This document shows, one piece after another, positions 54,077 to 59,666 of a stretch of DNA of 64,000 nucleotides. How positions within the stretch are numbered: position 1 is the first letter of the stretch; the number at the start of each line of letters is the position of its first letter. The notes under the pieces are model-generated. The model had not been told where the DNA came from and made no database searches. It was given only the letters and a program-made list of their open reading frames with translations. Source of the DNA: Shouchella rhizosphaerae (GTDB taxonomy: Bacteria > Bacillota > Bacilli > Bacillales > Bacillaceae_D); assembly GCF_900142675.1 (NCBI RefSeq), contig NZ_FRBS01000004.1, positions 164,380-228,379 of the forward strand, in the 5' to 3' direction. Both the position numbers and the translations under genes were made by a program.

Positions 54077-55054
54077 TTAAGTCGCAAAAAATGAAGCACG
54101 ACAATAGTGAAAGCCTTTCGCTAGTTCCTGTTTGTCAAGATGCTTGCCAATAAAAACAATTTCACTTTGCCTCTTTTCCTCTTTCGCCCACGGCGCTCCC
54201 TCTGTACTTGCAAATAGCATATGTACGCCTTGAAAAACAACTCTTTTCTCAAGTTGCTTTATATAAAGGACTCCTTTATAACGAAACAACGTTTCTCCTT
54301 TACATTGGACTAAATAGGCAAACCACTTATTCACTTTTTCTAAATCAAGGGGATGATCTTCCTGAAACACAAAAGAAGTCACTTGTTCATTATGGTGGTG
54401 GTGATGCATTTCGGTTAATAAAGTTGGATCTATTTTCACTACATTTTTTAAATCAAAGGATTTTTTCCCAACGACATCTCGACTATCTACATGTGCAAAT
54501 GTTGTATAAATTTGCTTCGCATGTGGGTTCATATCAGCCGTTGTCCCAGTTTATTTTTTTCATCGTCCGTAATCAAATCAACCTTATTTATTAAGAGAAT
54601 ATCAGCAAAAGCGATTTGTTGCCCAGCCTCTTCTTCCGCTAAATGTTGCCAAATATGTTTGGCGTCAACCATCGTAATCACATGATCGCTTTCAAATGAA
54701 TGGGCCGTTTCCTTATCCATTAAAAACGTTTGAATGACGGGTGCCGGATTCGCCATACCCGTTGTCTCAATGACAATACGGTCAAGGGATTCTTCTCGTT
54801 CATTCAAATTTCTTAATCGATTGATTAAATCAGCCCGTACATTGCAACAAATACAACCACTATTCACCTCTATAATTTCTTCCTTAGTTGGCACGACCAA
54901 GTGGCTATCAATCGATGTATCGCCAAATTCATTAATGATGACAGCCACATTTTGCTCATCTATCCCTTTTAAGAAGTGATTGAGCAATGTGGTTTTTCCC
55001 TGCGCCTAGAAAGCCCGTTAAAATCGTTACCGGAACTGTTTGTTGTTTTGGCAA
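54077..55054 (-). pseudogene. CobW/COG0523-type zinc-chaperone GTPase with two frameshifts
   Basis: Read together, three frames give a ~325-residue CobW protein. Part 1 starts at TTG 55054 behind GGAGG (KQQTVPVTILTGFLGAGK) but an AAAAA run at ~55000 has one A too many, breaking the Walker A motif (GAGKTTLLNHFLKG continues in the next frame). Part 2 (54987-54529) holds VAVIINEFGDTSID, the metal motif GCICC (VNSGCICCNVRADL), TTGMANPAPV and NKVDLIT. A second indel near 54532 (one base short) leads to part 3 (MNPHAKQIYTTF, a HHHHH segment, YKGVLYIKQLEKRVVFQGVHMLFA). A Zur box and a good promoter lie upstream, so the intact gene would be made under zinc starvation. Confidence 0.82.
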
Positions 55055-55117: not shown

Positions 55118-55138
55118 AAATCGTATCAATTACGATTT
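55118..55138. promoter_or_regulatory. Zur box upstream of the CobW-type gene
   Basis: AAATCGTATCAATTACGATTT fits the B. subtilis Zur consensus AAATCGTAATNATTACGATTT at 18 of 20 defined positions and covers the predicted transcription start. Confidence 0.85.
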
Positions 55139-55433: not shown

Positions 55434-55454
55434 AAAACGTAATAATTACGATTT
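55434..55454. promoter_or_regulatory. Zur box of the zinc-uptake operon
   Basis: AAAACGTAATAATTACGATTT matches the Bacillus Zur consensus at 19 of 20 defined positions. It sits right behind the promoter and 33 bases before the first start codon. Confidence 0.9.
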
Positions 55455-55486: not shown

Positions 55487-56488
55487 ATGAAAAAGCTACT
55501 TATTGGCTTATCAAGTTTAGTGGTACTCAGTACTTATTTAACAGCATGTCAAGGGACAAAAGAGAAGGAGCAAGTAAACGGAATAGAAAAAGAAGAATCA
55601 GAAGTACATACAGATGAGGATCACTCCCATGGTGATACAAGCGATTTTGAGGCTCCCGAAAAGATAAACATTGAAGGGGTTGCTGATCACTACCATACTG
55701 GCGATGCAATTGAGCTAACTGCAGAACAGGATGAAAAAACAGACTATGATCATTGGCACTGGTATAGCCGAGAAAACGCGGATGAGGAATGGGAAGTCGT
55801 TTCAGGGCAGGAAACGGATACATTTACAGGAGAAGCAACAATAGATGGCTTAGAAATAAAAGCTGTATTATTCGATCATGACCATAAGCCTCACGTTCAA
55901 TCTGCACCAGTCAAAGTGGTGATTGATGATCATCATGGACATGATGAAGAAAGCCGCCAAATCTATCAAGGCTATTTTGAAGATAGTCAAGTTGAAGATC
56001 GCGAATTGTCTGATTGGGAAGGTGATTGGCAATCGGTTTATCCTTACCTTCTATCTGGAGATCTAGACGAAGTGTTTGAACATAAAGCAGAAGATGGAGA
56101 TAAGACAGCAGATGAGTACAAGCAATATTATACGGTCGGATATGAAACAGATGTTGATCGTATCATCATTGAAGACAATATTGTCACTTTCTTTGAAAAT
56201 GACAACGAGTATGCAGGAGAGTACGAGTCAGATGGTTACGAGATTCTTACCTATGAAGCAGGCAATAGAGGGGTACGATTTATCTTTAAATTAGTTGATG
56301 GATCAGATGAAATGCCTCAATACATTCAGTTTAGTGATCACAATATCTATCCCGTAGATTCCCATCATTTCCACTTATATTGGGGAGATGACCGCGAGGC
56401 CCTATTGGACGAAGTTACCAATTGGCCAACGTACTACCCTTCTGAATTAGACAAAGATGGTATCGTACGTGATATGTTGGCACATTAA
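55487..56488 (+). CDS. zinT: zinc-binding lipoprotein: HWHW module plus ZinT domain
   Basis: The 333-residue protein follows AAAGGAGAGG. It is a lipoprotein (lipobox LTAC, Cys21) with an acidic His-containing linker (DEDHSHGD), a ~90-residue His/Trp-rich module at ~60-149 (GVADHYHTGD ... DYDHWHWYSRE ... AVLFDHDHKPH ... VIDDHHGHD), and a ZinT domain at ~155-333 (YQGYFEDSQVEDRELSDWEGDWQSVYPYLLSGDLDEVFE, YYTVGYETDVDRIIIEDN, SDHNIYPVDSHHFHLYWG with the zinc histidines). ZinT proteins bind zinc and hand it to ZnuA/AdcA; fusing an extra module in front is unusual. Confidence 0.92.
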   Translation: MKKLLIGLSSLVVLSTYLTACQGTKEKEQVNGIEKEESEVHTDEDHSHGDTSDFEAPEKINIEGVADHYHTGDAIELTAEQDEKTDYDHWHWYSRENADEEWEVVSGQETDTFTGEATIDGLEIKAVLFDHDHKPHVQSAPVKVVIDDHHGHDEESRQIYQGYFEDSQVEDRELSDWEGDWQSVYPYLLSGDLDEVFEHKAEDGDKTADEYKQYYTVGYETDVDRIIIEDNIVTFFENDNEYAGEYESDGYEILTYEAGNRGVRFIFKLVDGSDEMPQYIQFSDHNIYPVDSHHFHLYWGDDREALLDEVTNWPTYYPSELDKDGIVRDMLAH

Positions 56489-56552
56489 ATGTCGCAGAAG
56501 TTCATTTAAAAGAATATAGTTGAAATTCGTACTAATGTGAGGAGAATATAGG

Positions 56553-58127
56553 ATGAAAAGCACTTGGTTCGCTACCATTTTGTTTAGTTCACTTGTGTGT
56601 ACGACTCTTATAGGCTGTAGCCAAAATGAAGACGAAAATGCTGCAAGTGAGAAATTATCGGTTGTAACATCGTTTTATCCAATGTATGAATTTGCTCAAC
56701 AAGTCGCAGGGGATCGTGCAGACGTATCACTCATGGTTTCTGCAGGAGAAGATGCTCATCATTATGAACCAAGTGCCCAAGATGTAGCGGCTGTGAATGA
56801 GGCAAAAGTATTTGTCTATAGTAGTGAAGAAATGGAACATTGGGTTTCAAGTCTATTAAACACAGTCGAAAACGATGATCTCGTCATTGCTCGCACAGCA
56901 GATGGTGTGGATGTAGTTGATACGAGTGGATCAGGTCATGCTCATGACCACGATCAACATGGAGACGAGGAAAAGCAACAAGCTGCTGGAACGATCAGCA
57001 TTCAAGGGGTTGCGGATCATTATCATACTGGCAACATGATTGAATTAACGGCGGAAATAGATGAAGAGGTAGACTATGATCATTGGCACTGGTATACAAG
57101 AGAAAGTGCGGATGATGAATGGGCAACTGTTCCGAATCAAGGAGGACCTGAATTCAACTATGAGGCATCAAGAGAAAGCTTTGAGGTCCGGGCAGTCCTT
57201 TTTGATGAGAACCACAATGAATACGCCGAGTCAGACCCAGTAGAAATTGTCATTGATGATCATGGCCAGGAAGACGAACATGAGCACGATGAGGAACATG
57301 GTCAACACCATGAACATGGAAGTGATAGCGCAATTGAAATAGTTGGATTGGCGGATCACTACCATACAGGAGACGTGGTTACACTCGTTGCGCTGCTTGA
57401 AGAAGACGTAGACTACGATCATTGGCACTGGTACACACGTATGAGTGAAGAGGATGAATGGGAAGCTGTATCTGGTCAAGGAACCGACCACTTTGAGTAT
57501 AAAACGACTGGAGAAAGCTTCGAAGTACGGGCAGTCCTTTTTGATGACGATCATCATACGTATGCAGAATCAGAGCCAGTATCGGTCATTATTGATGATC
57601 ATGAATCACACGATCCACATATTTGGCTAGACCCTGTATTGGCACAAGAGCAAGTTAATGTTATCCGCGATGCCCTGATTGAGGCAGATCCAGACGGACA
57701 AGCGATTTATGAGGAAAATGCAGAAGCCTTTAATAAAGAGCTTCAAGCCTTACATGAGGACTATCAAGTTGCTCTTGAAGATGCAGAAAGCCGCGTTTTT
57801 GTCGTACAACACCAAGCATTTGGATACCTTGCGCAACGTTATCAGTTAGAGCAAGTAGCGATTGGCGGTTTATCTACAGAAGTAGAACCAAGTCCATCGC
57901 GCATTGCTGAAATTGGAAACCTCGTGGAAGAACATAATGTGCCCGTTATTTATTATCAACAAGGGGCAAATTCAGCCATTGCCGAAACAGTCGCTACTGA
58001 AACAGGGACAGAGACCGCCGTTTTGTATGACTTAGAAGTACTGTCTGAAGAGCTACAAGCAGAAAATCTAGGATACGTCGACGCCATGCGTAAAAACTTG
58101 GAAGCTTTACAGGTAAGCATCAAATAA
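56553..58127 (+). CDS. adcA: zinc ABC transporter substrate-binding lipoprotein AdcA with two inserted HWHW modules
   Basis: The 524-residue lipoprotein (lipobox LIGC, Cys22) is a ZnuA/AdcA cluster A-I protein: VVTSFYPMYEFAQQVAGD, AGEDAHHYEPSAQD with zinc ligand His70, DPHIWLDPVLAQEQ (His356) and VVQHQAFGYLAQRY. The usual short His-rich loop between the first two is replaced by ~230 residues: HAHDHDQHGDEE, module 1 (148-237), a second His/Glu tract (DEHEHDEEHGQHHEHG), and module 2 (261-350). Both modules repeat the one in the preceding ZinT-like protein. It delivers zinc to AdcB/AdcC. Typical family length is ~300 residues. Confidence 0.94.
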   Translation: MKSTWFATILFSSLVCTTLIGCSQNEDENAASEKLSVVTSFYPMYEFAQQVAGDRADVSLMVSAGEDAHHYEPSAQDVAAVNEAKVFVYSSEEMEHWVSSLLNTVENDDLVIARTADGVDVVDTSGSGHAHDHDQHGDEEKQQAAGTISIQGVADHYHTGNMIELTAEIDEEVDYDHWHWYTRESADDEWATVPNQGGPEFNYEASRESFEVRAVLFDENHNEYAESDPVEIVIDDHGQEDEHEHDEEHGQHHEHGSDSAIEIVGLADHYHTGDVVTLVALLEEDVDYDHWHWYTRMSEEDEWEAVSGQGTDHFEYKTTGESFEVRAVLFDDDHHTYAESEPVSVIIDDHESHDPHIWLDPVLAQEQVNVIRDALIEADPDGQAIYEENAEAFNKELQALHEDYQVALEDAESRVFVVQHQAFGYLAQRYQLEQVAIGGLSTEVEPSPSRIAEIGNLVEEHNVPVIYYQQGANSAIAETVATETGTETAVLYDLEVLSEELQAENLGYVDAMRKNLEALQVSIK

Positions 58128-58182: not shown

Positions 58183-58890
58183 ATGCATTATATTGAAGTA
58201 AAGAATCTCGCCTTTCAGTATGAACATGAACCGCTGTTAGAAAATATTTCATTTGAAGTAAATGCAGAAGATTTTGTGATGCTAACTGGAGAAAATGGTG
58301 CCGCAAAGACAACTTTGTTGCGCAATATTTTAGGTTTGCTGAAACCAACAAAAGGCAGCGTCCGCATTTCACCAAAAAATCGTTTTGGCGAGAAGCTCAT
58401 GATCGGATATGTTTCACAGCAGGTTGCCTCGTTTAACGCTGGATTTCCAAGTACTGTGCTTGAATTTGTGCAATCCGGCCGCTATCAAAGGGGCAAATGG
58501 TTTAAAAGATTAGATAAAGTAGACAAGGAGCATGTGCGGCGCTCACTAGAATCCGTGGGAATGTGGGACATGCGCCATAACAAAATAGGCGAATTATCTG
58601 GCGGGCAAAAACAGCGGATTTCGATTGCCCGTGTATTTGCAACAGACCCTGATTTGTTTGTCCTAGATGAACCGACGACTGGAATGGATGTGAATTCTAG
58701 AGAAGAATTCTATAAATTGTTGAAGCACAATTGTCGTGAACATGGGAAAGCGATTTTAATGGTTACCCATGATCATGAAGAAATCCGTCATTATGCTGAT
58801 AAACATATTGAGCTAGTCAGGAAGGAGGGCTCTCCATGGAGATGTTTTTCCATGGATTCATGCAAAGAGCTGTCCAAGCCTCCCTGCTAA
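58183..58890 (+). CDS. adcC: zinc ABC transporter ATP-binding protein
   Basis: The 235-residue ATPase has Walker A GENGAAKTT (36-44), signature LSGGQKQR, Walker B LFVLDEPTTGMD and the switch His in MVTHDHEE. The Walker A has Ala where most ABC proteins have the last Gly before Lys; as I recall, streptococcal AdcC proteins share this, along with SFNAGFPSTVLEFVQSGRY and the C-terminal SPWRCF, so it is a family trait rather than a defect. The 3' end overlaps adcB by 55 bases. Confidence 0.94.
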   Translation: MHYIEVKNLAFQYEHEPLLENISFEVNAEDFVMLTGENGAAKTTLLRNILGLLKPTKGSVRISPKNRFGEKLMIGYVSQQVASFNAGFPSTVLEFVQSGRYQRGKWFKRLDKVDKEHVRRSLESVGMWDMRHNKIGELSGGQKQRISIARVFATDPDLFVLDEPTTGMDVNSREEFYKLLKHNCREHGKAILMVTHDHEEIRHYADKHIELVRKEGSPWRCFSMDSCKELSKPPC

Positions 58891-59666
58891 TCTCATTCAT
58901 TGCACCATTGTTAGGCTTGTTTTTAATATTGCGTAGACAGTCTCTAATGGCGGATACTTTATCCCATGTATCCTTAGCCGGTGTAGCACTAGGTTTGCTA
59001 ATCGGCGTCAATCCAACGTGGACCAATCTTTTAGTCGTTGCGGCAATTGCCATCATGCTTGAATATTTACGAGTGGTGTATCGTACGTATTCAGAAATTT
59101 CGATTGCGATCTTAATGTCAGTTGGCATGGCTCTAGCCCTATTCTTGATGGGGTTAAATGAGGGTGGCGCGACTTTAAGTATGAACCAATTTTTATTTGG
59201 CTCCATTGTCACCATTAGTCAGCAGCAAGTATGGATGTTGTTCATCCTAACGATTATGATTAGTCTCCTCTATTTCGTTTTCCGCAAACCTATGTATATT
59301 TTGACATTCGACGAGGAAATTGCCTTCACCGCAGGTTTGCCTATCAAAACGATGTCTATTTTGTTTAACGTGTTAACAGGGGTAACGATTGCAATCATTA
59401 TGCCGATAGTCGGCGCTTTACTCGTTTCAGCCATTATCGTCTTACCTGCTGCAATTTCAATGCGGTTAAGCAAAAGCTTTAATGGTGTTATTTTCATTGG
59501 AATCGTGATTGCCTTAATTGGCATGTTGAGTGGTTTAGTCGCTTCGTATGAATTAGGTACACCACCGGGAGCTTCTATCATATTAATTTTTATGATCCTT
59601 TTTGCTGCGACTGCACTAGTTAAACAGATTTTGCGTCACACTAAATTAGAGAAACGATTTAAATAG
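58836..59666 (+). CDS. adcB: zinc ABC transporter permease
   Basis: The 276-residue protein has eight or nine hydrophobic helices and the ZnuB/AdcB pattern: LLGLFLILRRQSLMADTLSHVSLAGVALG, FGSIVTISQQQVW, AGLPIKTMSILFNVLTGVTIAIIMPIVGALLVSAIIVLPAA. It starts behind AGGAGGG inside the end of adcC. It completes the operon zinT-adcA-adcC-adcB, which is followed by a terminator. Confidence 0.95.
   Translation: MEMFFHGFMQRAVQASLLISFIAPLLGLFLILRRQSLMADTLSHVSLAGVALGLLIGVNPTWTNLLVVAAIAIMLEYLRVVYRTYSEISIAILMSVGMALALFLMGLNEGGATLSMNQFLFGSIVTISQQQVWMLFILTIMISLLYFVFRKPMYILTFDEEIAFTAGLPIKTMSILFNVLTGVTIAIIMPIVGALLVSAIIVLPAAISMRLSKSFNGVIFIGIVIALIGMLSGLVASYELGTPPGASIILIFMILFAATALVKQILRHTKLEKRFK

Follow-up and report, generated by a model that had tools for sequence, protein, structure and literature searches.

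A putative zinc-recruiting module with two histidine triads in the ZinT- and ZnuA-like lipoproteins of Shouchella rhizosphaerae

The window analyzed here is a 64,000-nucleotide stretch of Shouchella rhizosphaerae DNA (contig NZ_FRBS01000004.1, positions 164,380 to 228,379), which carries a zinT-znuA-znuC-znuB cluster. A module of about 91 residues, with conserved His and Trp, occurs once in the ZinT-like lipoprotein and twice in the AdcA/ZnuA-like lipoprotein of this cluster. The module represents a small domain family without a name, found in two phyla. Computation showed that its six conserved histidines form two triads that are coupled internally, with no coupling detected between them. The module is probably an extracellular, immunoglobulin (Ig)-like beta-sandwich with two three-His zinc sites, which would recruit zinc for ZnuA and ZinT.

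The module family and its carriers

The sequence-only reading of this DNA had pointed to three copies of the module. The open reading frames were recovered at the positions it gave, and the profile-placed modules were at most 3 residues away from its figures. Pairwise identity among the three copies was 55 to 59% (50 to 54 of 91 residues), and 41 of the 92 alignment columns were invariant, including ADHYHTG, YDHWHWY, AVLFD, the following H, and IDDH. The motif strings reported earlier are shared, but two of them are not exact: for VDYDHWHWYTR, the ZinT-like protein has TDYDHWHWYSR, and for VIDDH, the last AdcA copy has IIDDH. With one window copy as the query, a search of the host genome (4.24 Mb, 13 contigs) returned the other two (E = 4e-35 and 4e-30) and, from a different contig, a fourth (E = 2e-18). 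The likeness among the window copies far exceeds chance. Module A2 has a 95% match in the records of both S. clausii and S. tritolerans. The module-bearing features of the window are as follows.

55487..56488, forward strand: zinT-like lipoprotein gene (open reading frame of 333 amino acids [aa]; His-rich linker, one module, ZinT domain)
55670..55942, forward strand: module Z (aa 62-152 of the ZinT-like protein; profile match); triad 1, His 68, 70, and 149; triad 2, His 89, 91, and 133
56553..58127, forward strand: adcA/znuA-like zinc substrate-binding lipoprotein gene (open reading frame of 524 aa; two modules within the His-rich loop)
57000..57272, forward strand: module A1 (aa 150-240 of AdcA; profile match); triad 1, His 156, 158, and 237; triad 2, His 177, 179, and 221
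57273..57338, forward strand: His/Glu-rich linker joining A1 and A2 (aa 241-262; translation)
57339..57611, forward strand: module A2 (aa 263-353 of AdcA; profile match); triad 1, His 269, 271, and 350; triad 2, His 290, 292, and 334
57612..57626, forward strand: DPHIW motif of the substrate-binding protein (aa 354-358; contains His 356)

The ZinT domain of the ZinT-like protein matched PF09223 at aa 156-333 (E = 8.8e-84, 280.3 bits, cut-off 27). AdcA matched the ZnuA family PF01297 (E = 5.1e-72, 242.9 bits, cut-off 29) in two stretches flanking the modules. As had been proposed, the AdcA modules lie within the His-rich loop directly ahead of DPHxW, and His-rich linkers persist around them.

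In the window proteins, no Pfam, NCBIfam, or PHROGs family extended over the module, and only weak matches were obtained. DUF5961 (0.0011), Enc34_ssDNA-bd (0.012), and a PHROG Ig protein covering part of module A1 only (0.021) were taken as chance or a faint Ig signal. When 78 modules were scanned singly, no Pfam family was consistent: 39 families matched weakly, and the commonest among the best 25 of these 39 occurred in 6 of the 78 modules. Phage_tail_2, present in 6 of 78 modules (5.3e-4 at best), was likewise taken as chance or a faint Ig signal. Where cut-offs were listed, all weak Pfam matches to the module fell below them. In NCBIfam, 15 families matched the 78 modules weakly, none in more than three. 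The profile search that had been suggested thus returned no named family covering the module. The claim that the module had no known description agrees with the literature, in which no paper describing it was found by title or abstract, with most subscription journals and bioRxiv preprints lying outside the search.

From Bacillota and Actinomycetota, 166 distinct complete modules were gathered, 27 of which are actinobacterial. The 166 modules and their 118 carrier proteins were counted after removal of identical copies and truncated frames (except for locus L098, which lies outside the 118). The family search of the genome collection used two motif patterns, which contained the histidines H7/H9 and H28/H30 (module numbering). 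The named genome collection yielded 65 loci, 53 in Bacillota (including Shouchella, Gracilibacillus, Oceanobacillus, Amphibacillus, Niallia, Cytobacillus, Geomicrobium, Desemzia, Marinilactibacillus, and Jeotgalicoccus) and 12 in actinobacteria (Streptomyces, Actinophytocola, Leucobacter, Microbacterium, Frigoribacterium, and Cellulomonas). Several of the carrier genera of Bacillota are known as alkali or salt loving. The module was present in 18 of the 299 genomes sampled from the order and in 11 of 116 genera. In a phylum-wide sample of 398 genomes, full modules were found in the window's own genome only, with weak partial matches in seven others (E = 1.4e-6 to 8.9e-4; open frames of 548 to 2015 aa), and in an actinobacterial sample of 396 genomes the module was found in the centre genome only; because scoring in either sample was limited to 12 first-look candidates per genome, copies may have been missed. 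The distribution in the phylum-wide samples is patchy. Viral contigs gave nine pattern matches, none of which was confirmed as a module relative. The sole plasmid record found was NZ_CP102590.1, a 1.44-Mb plasmid of Niallia taxi, with a module at 1278037-1278315; no listed feature lies beneath this match, and the gene table of the record is incomplete.

Among the 107 Bacillota carriers scanned (the 118 minus 11 actinobacterial proteins, 5 of which were scanned separately), 56 matched ZnuA and 50 matched ZinT (106 of 107 in total), and a recount by layout gave the same split of 56, 50, and 1. In Bacillota, a module shared by proteins of many kinds is thus ruled out. The carrier outside the split is a 165-aa Desemzia protein (L075, 3842-4336) with one module, a lipoprotein-like signal (by eye), and no remainder of ZinT or ZnuA size; it is encoded directly ahead of a 432-aa ZnuA-like gene with one module. 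Two ZnuA proteins (L020, 1489-2835, and L022, 1483-2808, both on the reverse strand) bear the module at the C terminus and keep an ordinary His-rich loop, indicating that the module is movable.

In the 500 bases preceding the first carrier gene, 51 of the 53 Bacillota loci (all except L082 and L093) have a Zur box with at most 4 mismatches; a single letter shuffle of the 65 loci produced 3 sites of this kind in 524 kb. The Bacillus-type box was absent from all 12 actinobacterial loci. For the actinobacterial Zur consensus, sites with no more than 4 mismatches were present in 10 of 11 upstream regions versus 4 of 550 shuffles. In L088 and L094, the actinobacterial Zur-like site lies just past the presumed start codon.

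All 10 actinobacterial genomes checked, which cover 10 of the 12 loci, have a module 0.7 to 9.2 kb from a ZnuA match; in eight of them the distance is at most 2.3 kb. The five actinobacterial carriers scanned, from Streptomyces, Actinophytocola, Leucobacter, and Frigoribacterium, all matched choice-of-anchor M and TIGR03769; all five also matched TIGR03773, two of them above the cut-off of that model. The best choice-of-anchor M and TIGR03769 stretches did not overlap the modules in these carriers; in L097, the best TIGR03773 stretch covers part of the decayed first module copy. None of the 78 modules scanned singly matched NF038134 or TIGR03769 at E up to 0.1, and hhalign of the module profile against choice-of-anchor M (6 domains) gave a probability of 0.2%, ruling out that the module is either of these domains. 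The likeness to the actinobacterial anchored repeat that the sequence-only reading had noted is one of company in the same proteins (5 of 5 carriers scanned), not of identity. In G304, a second protein (G304:C1:193009-194430, an 811-aa frame) contains three weaker module-like matches (E = 5e-13 at best), and G303 has two further faint module matches elsewhere (E = 7e-4).

In all 10 genomes, the ZnuA gene beside the actinobacterial carrier gave a split match to the ZnuA profile, the first piece ending at 80-83 and the second starting at 97 in eight genomes and at 65 and 83 in the others. The content of the insert was read in two loci only, L141 (457-2040) and L145 (121-2058), where an HTH-W motif is followed by GHAD, the reverse of the choice-of-anchor M order. 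One study describes such a reversed order in the ZnuA of Corynebacterium diphtheriae; it also reports that zinc shifts the thermal stability of ZnuE, ZnuF, and ZnuG, which have the HxD/HxH motif, and that the histidines of this motif matter for growth, the motif's own zinc binding being unproven (PMC12445094). Judging by the letters GHID and HTH, the HxD/HxH domain of C. diphtheriae ZnuE, ZnuF, ZnuG, and ZnuA is probably choice-of-anchor M. Given the reversed-order insert in the actinobacterial ZnuA loop, the same loop appears to have received two unrelated zinc-linked domains in two phyla.

Two histidine triads and the predicted fold

The six conserved histidines of the module are H7, H9, H28, H30, H72, and H88, of which H7, H9, and H88 form triad 1 and H28, H30, and H72 form triad 2. 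All six were present in 108 of the 166 modules. Triad 2 was gone and triad 1 kept in 23 modules, triad 1 was gone and triad 2 kept in 4, and 3 modules lacked all six. Overall, triad 2 was full in 114 modules, absent in 27, and partial in 25, and triad 1 was full in 156, absent in 7, and partial in 3. A single six-His site was ruled out because either triad can vanish while the other remains.

Coupling was analyzed by Pagel-type tests on one quick module tree made without the His columns. All six within-triad pairs were coupled (likelihood ratio, 20.8 to 51.9; P = 3.5e-4 to 1.5e-10), and none of the nine cross-triad pairs received support (likelihood ratio, 0.3 to 2.4; P ≥ 0.67). As a control, 150 random pairs among 33 other variable conserved columns, run with fewer optimizer starts, gave a maximum likelihood ratio of 14.4 (median, 4.2). 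An independent-pairs test on the starred branches of the tree, with 2 to 6 pairs, gave the same direction, with within-triad median P values of 0.06 to 0.5. The tests thus recovered two coupled ligand sets, weakly so in the stricter independent-pairs test. By parsimony, triad 1 changed two to four times, and H88 only twice.

Neighboring Asp residues followed the triads in Fisher-type counts that ignore descent: D86 was present in 140 of the 156 modules with a full triad 1 versus 0 of 7 with none, and D27 in 96 of the 114 modules with a full triad 2 versus 6 of 27 with none. The coupling within the triads and the accompanying Asp are the pattern expected from two separate metal sites, each with three His and perhaps one Asp. 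A natural decay series was observed in a Frigoribacterium surface protein (L097, 1760-4756) with six tandem modules, of which two are without all six His, two have triad 1 only, one has triad 2 only, and one has triad 2 and one further His.

When the module profile was compared with the PDB, the three best matches (all those with E up to 0.1) were Ig domains, with E values of 0.032 to 0.074. The alignments were in register, with the GDxVxLxA stretch and W31 placed on the Ig strand and Trp. W31 was present in all 78 alignment rows and W41 in 106 of the 108 six-His modules. Ig-like Pfam matches were scattered over few modules; among the best 25 of the 39 families, the best reached 7.6e-4, in 3 of 78 modules. 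In the Ig topology, the position before the A-B turn and the end of strand G share one pole, and the start of strand C and the F-G hairpin share the other. If the Ig fold is right, H7/H9 and H88 would therefore be at one end and H28/H30 and H72 at the other, which fits the two triads. This suggests that the module is an Ig-like beta-sandwich with one triad at each end. The sandwich in the earlier proposal of a beta-sandwich zinc site is plausible from the weak Ig matches, but the data favor two three-His sites per module, not one.

Proposed role and alternatives

The family, its context, and the coupled triads were established by computation; that the metal is zinc, that the fold is Ig-like, that the triads occupy opposite ends, that Zur is in control, and that zinc is handed over are inferences. 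In this mechanism, the module would be produced under zinc starvation via Zur. Site 1 would consist of the HxH just ahead of the first turn (ADHYHTG) and the His ending the last strand (IDDH), and site 2 of the HxH with which the strand containing the Trp begins (DHWHWY) and a His in the next hairpin (DDDH). The module would catch zinc outside the cell, raising the local supply, and hand it to the binding sites of ZnuA and ZinT.

The placement of the modules is consistent with such a role. Of 52 binding proteins measured, among them that of the window, 42 have DPHxW immediately after the last module. In the window AdcA, the last His of triad 1, His 350, is six residues ahead of the DPH-motif His 356, which is presumably a zinc ligand by its position, like His140 of pneumococcal AdcA (PMC7858048). 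Triad 1 was kept in 38 of 38 modules adjoining DPHxW. Triad 2 was complete in 21 of these 38, versus 35 of 38 for the first module (Fisher P = 5e-4, descent ignored). A relay would require such retention of triad 1 at the contact with the acceptor. When zinc is scarce, the His-rich loop and the ZinT domain of pneumococcal AdcA jointly aid its recruitment (PMC7858048), and the modules would be a more powerful version of these parts.

A bolder version of the proposal, which is possible but somewhat doubtful, treats the module as a two-ended zinc bead, an Ig-like family common to Bacillota and Actinomycetota with one zinc site per pole. Beads in the ZnuA loop, before ZinT, and on wall proteins would form a relay from the outer wall to the importer, with the inner pole of the last bead beside the metal site of ZnuA, and the same loop would have taken up two unrelated domains in two phyla.

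In the module tree, copies from the same position (ZinT, first AdcA, or second AdcA) group together, with 19 label changes versus about 96 in shuffles, although several changes between the AdcA positions are required by well-supported branches. This grouping points to an ancient three-module layout, passed on for the most part by descent and to some extent exchanged. The actinobacterial copies form one side of a branch that is not starred (SH-aLRT, 91).

Several observations weigh against zinc recruitment through two independent sites. Most genomes of the order are without the module, and in G304 the second module protein has no ZnuA hit nearby. The PDB Ig matches are weak even at best (E = 0.032). 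Triad loss is not always whole, with triad 2 partial in 25 modules versus absent in 27 and triad 1 partial in 3 versus 7, and all seven complete losses of triad 1 are actinobacterial. Because triad 1 seldom changes, few events underlie its coupling and the absence of coupling across the triads. The stricter independent-pairs test never gave a median P below 0.06, and the cross-triad Fisher tests, uncorrected for descent, gave P values of 0.05 to 0.39. The search patterns held H7/H9 and H28/H30 and may favor those pairs, but they did not hold H72 or H88. The module tree was built from the short domain itself (about 95 columns), and its resolution is poor, with many unresolved forks. Lastly, structural zinc sites would produce nearly the same pattern as the proposed transfer of zinc.

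The triads may accordingly be structural zinc sites that pin the ends of an exported Ig domain, the module being mainly a rigid spacer that lifts ZnuA and ZinT into the wall. Disulfides or calcium play such a part elsewhere. We consider this explanation unlikely, although it is the best of the alternatives. The triads do link residues distant in sequence, like structural sites, tandem modules occur in long actinobacterial proteins, where spacers are common, and the domain is still recognizable after the loss of triad 2. However, a plain spacer would also be expected outside zinc-uptake proteins, to which the Bacillota modules are nearly limited (106 of 107), and Zur-box genes are expected to be on when zinc is scarcest, an odd moment to spend zinc.

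The module might instead sense zinc, with occupancy altering the conformation of the loop and gating delivery by ZnuA to the permease. The position of the module in the loop, with the last triad 1 His six residues from the DPH-motif His, agrees with this, but a module that precedes ZinT (50 of 107 carriers), that is C-terminal as in the L020 and L022 ZnuA proteins, or that is carried by actinobacterial surface proteins outside ZnuA would be unable to gate ZnuA directly, which makes sensing improbable. Slightly less probable still is a cell wall- or ligand-binding Ig domain whose His and Trp bind another metal, a wall polymer, or a zinc chelate, since the conserved aromatics W31 and W41 beside the His leave room for such a ligand, but the Zur boxes, the zinc-protein carriers, and the variation of the His and neighboring Asp as sets, the pattern of a metal site, speak against it.

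The surrounding locus and comparison with known systems

The remaining features of the cluster are as follows.

55118..55138, forward strand: second Zur box, 2 mismatches; faces the divergent cobW-like gene
55434..55454, forward strand: Zur box, 1 mismatch; ends 32 bases ahead of the zinT-like start codon
58183..58890, forward strand: znuC-like ABC ATPase (PF00005)
58836..59666, forward strand: znuB-like permease (PF00950, ABC-3; E = 4.8e-72)

With the ATPase and the ABC-3 permease in the same cluster and the upstream Zur box, the window AdcA groups with Cluster A-I. Among the best 25 of 198 NCBIfam models for the znuC-like ATPase, the top ones were metal/zinc ABC ATPases, below their cut-offs. 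In 100 shuffles, the mean number of Zur boxes by chance was 0. The cobW-like GTPase gene behind the second box (54077-54987, reverse strand) is broken into separate frames in the window; its counterpart in the S. clausii locus L034 is a single intact 342-aa frame. The break represents either true decay or an assembly error.

The window genome encodes three ZnuA-family proteins, two with modules and a third, on contig C5, without; the last is taken to be of the manganese type from its sequence. The fourth module copy of the genome is in an orphan ZnuA-type lipoprotein of 451 aa on contig C4 (L004, 946-2298, reverse strand), around which no ABC-type open reading frame was seen by eye within 3.3 kb. 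Its neighbor is presumably a glycerophosphodiester phosphodiesterase. The S. clausii and S. tritolerans counterparts of the orphan gene (L090 and L091) have a Zur-like box with 3 mismatches 36 bases upstream.

It is poorly understood how zinc reaches a membrane-bound binding protein through a thick Gram-positive wall. The flexible ZnuA loop, whose role is called poorly defined in PMC7858048, has here received apparent folded modules, each with two sites that can be counted and separated. Natural copies without exactly one triad are ready-made mutants for the zinc count per module and the direction of hand-over. Examples are the second AdcA module of Shouchella miscanthi (L058, identical to that of L025), which is without triad 2, and the third copy in the Leucobacter protein L095, which is without triad 1. 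With a name for the family, zinc proteins of many Bacillota would be better annotated and could be linked to actinobacterial surface proteins now known only by other domains.

Among known systems, choice-of-anchor M (NF038134) and TIGR03769, found in TIGR03773/TIGR03772 proteins, are likewise accessory zinc-associated domains of Gram-positive uptake, on surface proteins near ZnuA genes, and choice-of-anchor M, if it is the HxD/HxH domain of C. diphtheriae, also occurs inside ZnuA itself in reversed order (PMC12445094). However, the choice-of-anchor M model has 184 positions versus about 91 in the module, its HxD and HxH are about 150 residues apart, and the two have no profile similarity. Pneumococcal AdcA (PMC7858048) has accessory zinc-recruiting parts in its His-rich loop, at the same loop position, and in its ZinT domain. 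That loop has 17 residues (120-136), mostly unseen in the crystal, whereas one or two modules of about 91 residues are inside the loop here, and ZinT is fused at the C terminus in the pneumococcal protein but is encoded by a separate gene, with its own module, in Shouchella.

The Pht histidine-triad proteins, of which PhtD acts with AdcAII (PMC3842936), are likewise repeated extracellular His zinc modules beside a zinc-binding lipoprotein. Membership in the Pht family was ruled out, as their motif HxxHxH (in the form given in PMC12445094) was present in none of the 166 modules. Bacterial and immune Ig-like domains align with the module over the GDxVxLxA strand and the core Trp, and over later strands too for one bacterial Ig protein; the module differs in its two conserved His triads, and the similarity is weak (E = 0.032 at best). 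ZepA, a cyanobacterial zinc exoprotein, is also involved in zinc uptake and modeled as an Ig-like beta-sandwich, but it is a two-domain secreted protein and is likened here by description only (PMC10957091). The module most likely works like the known accessory zinc parts of ZnuA proteins, as a member of neither the choice-of-anchor M/TIGR03769 nor the Pht family.

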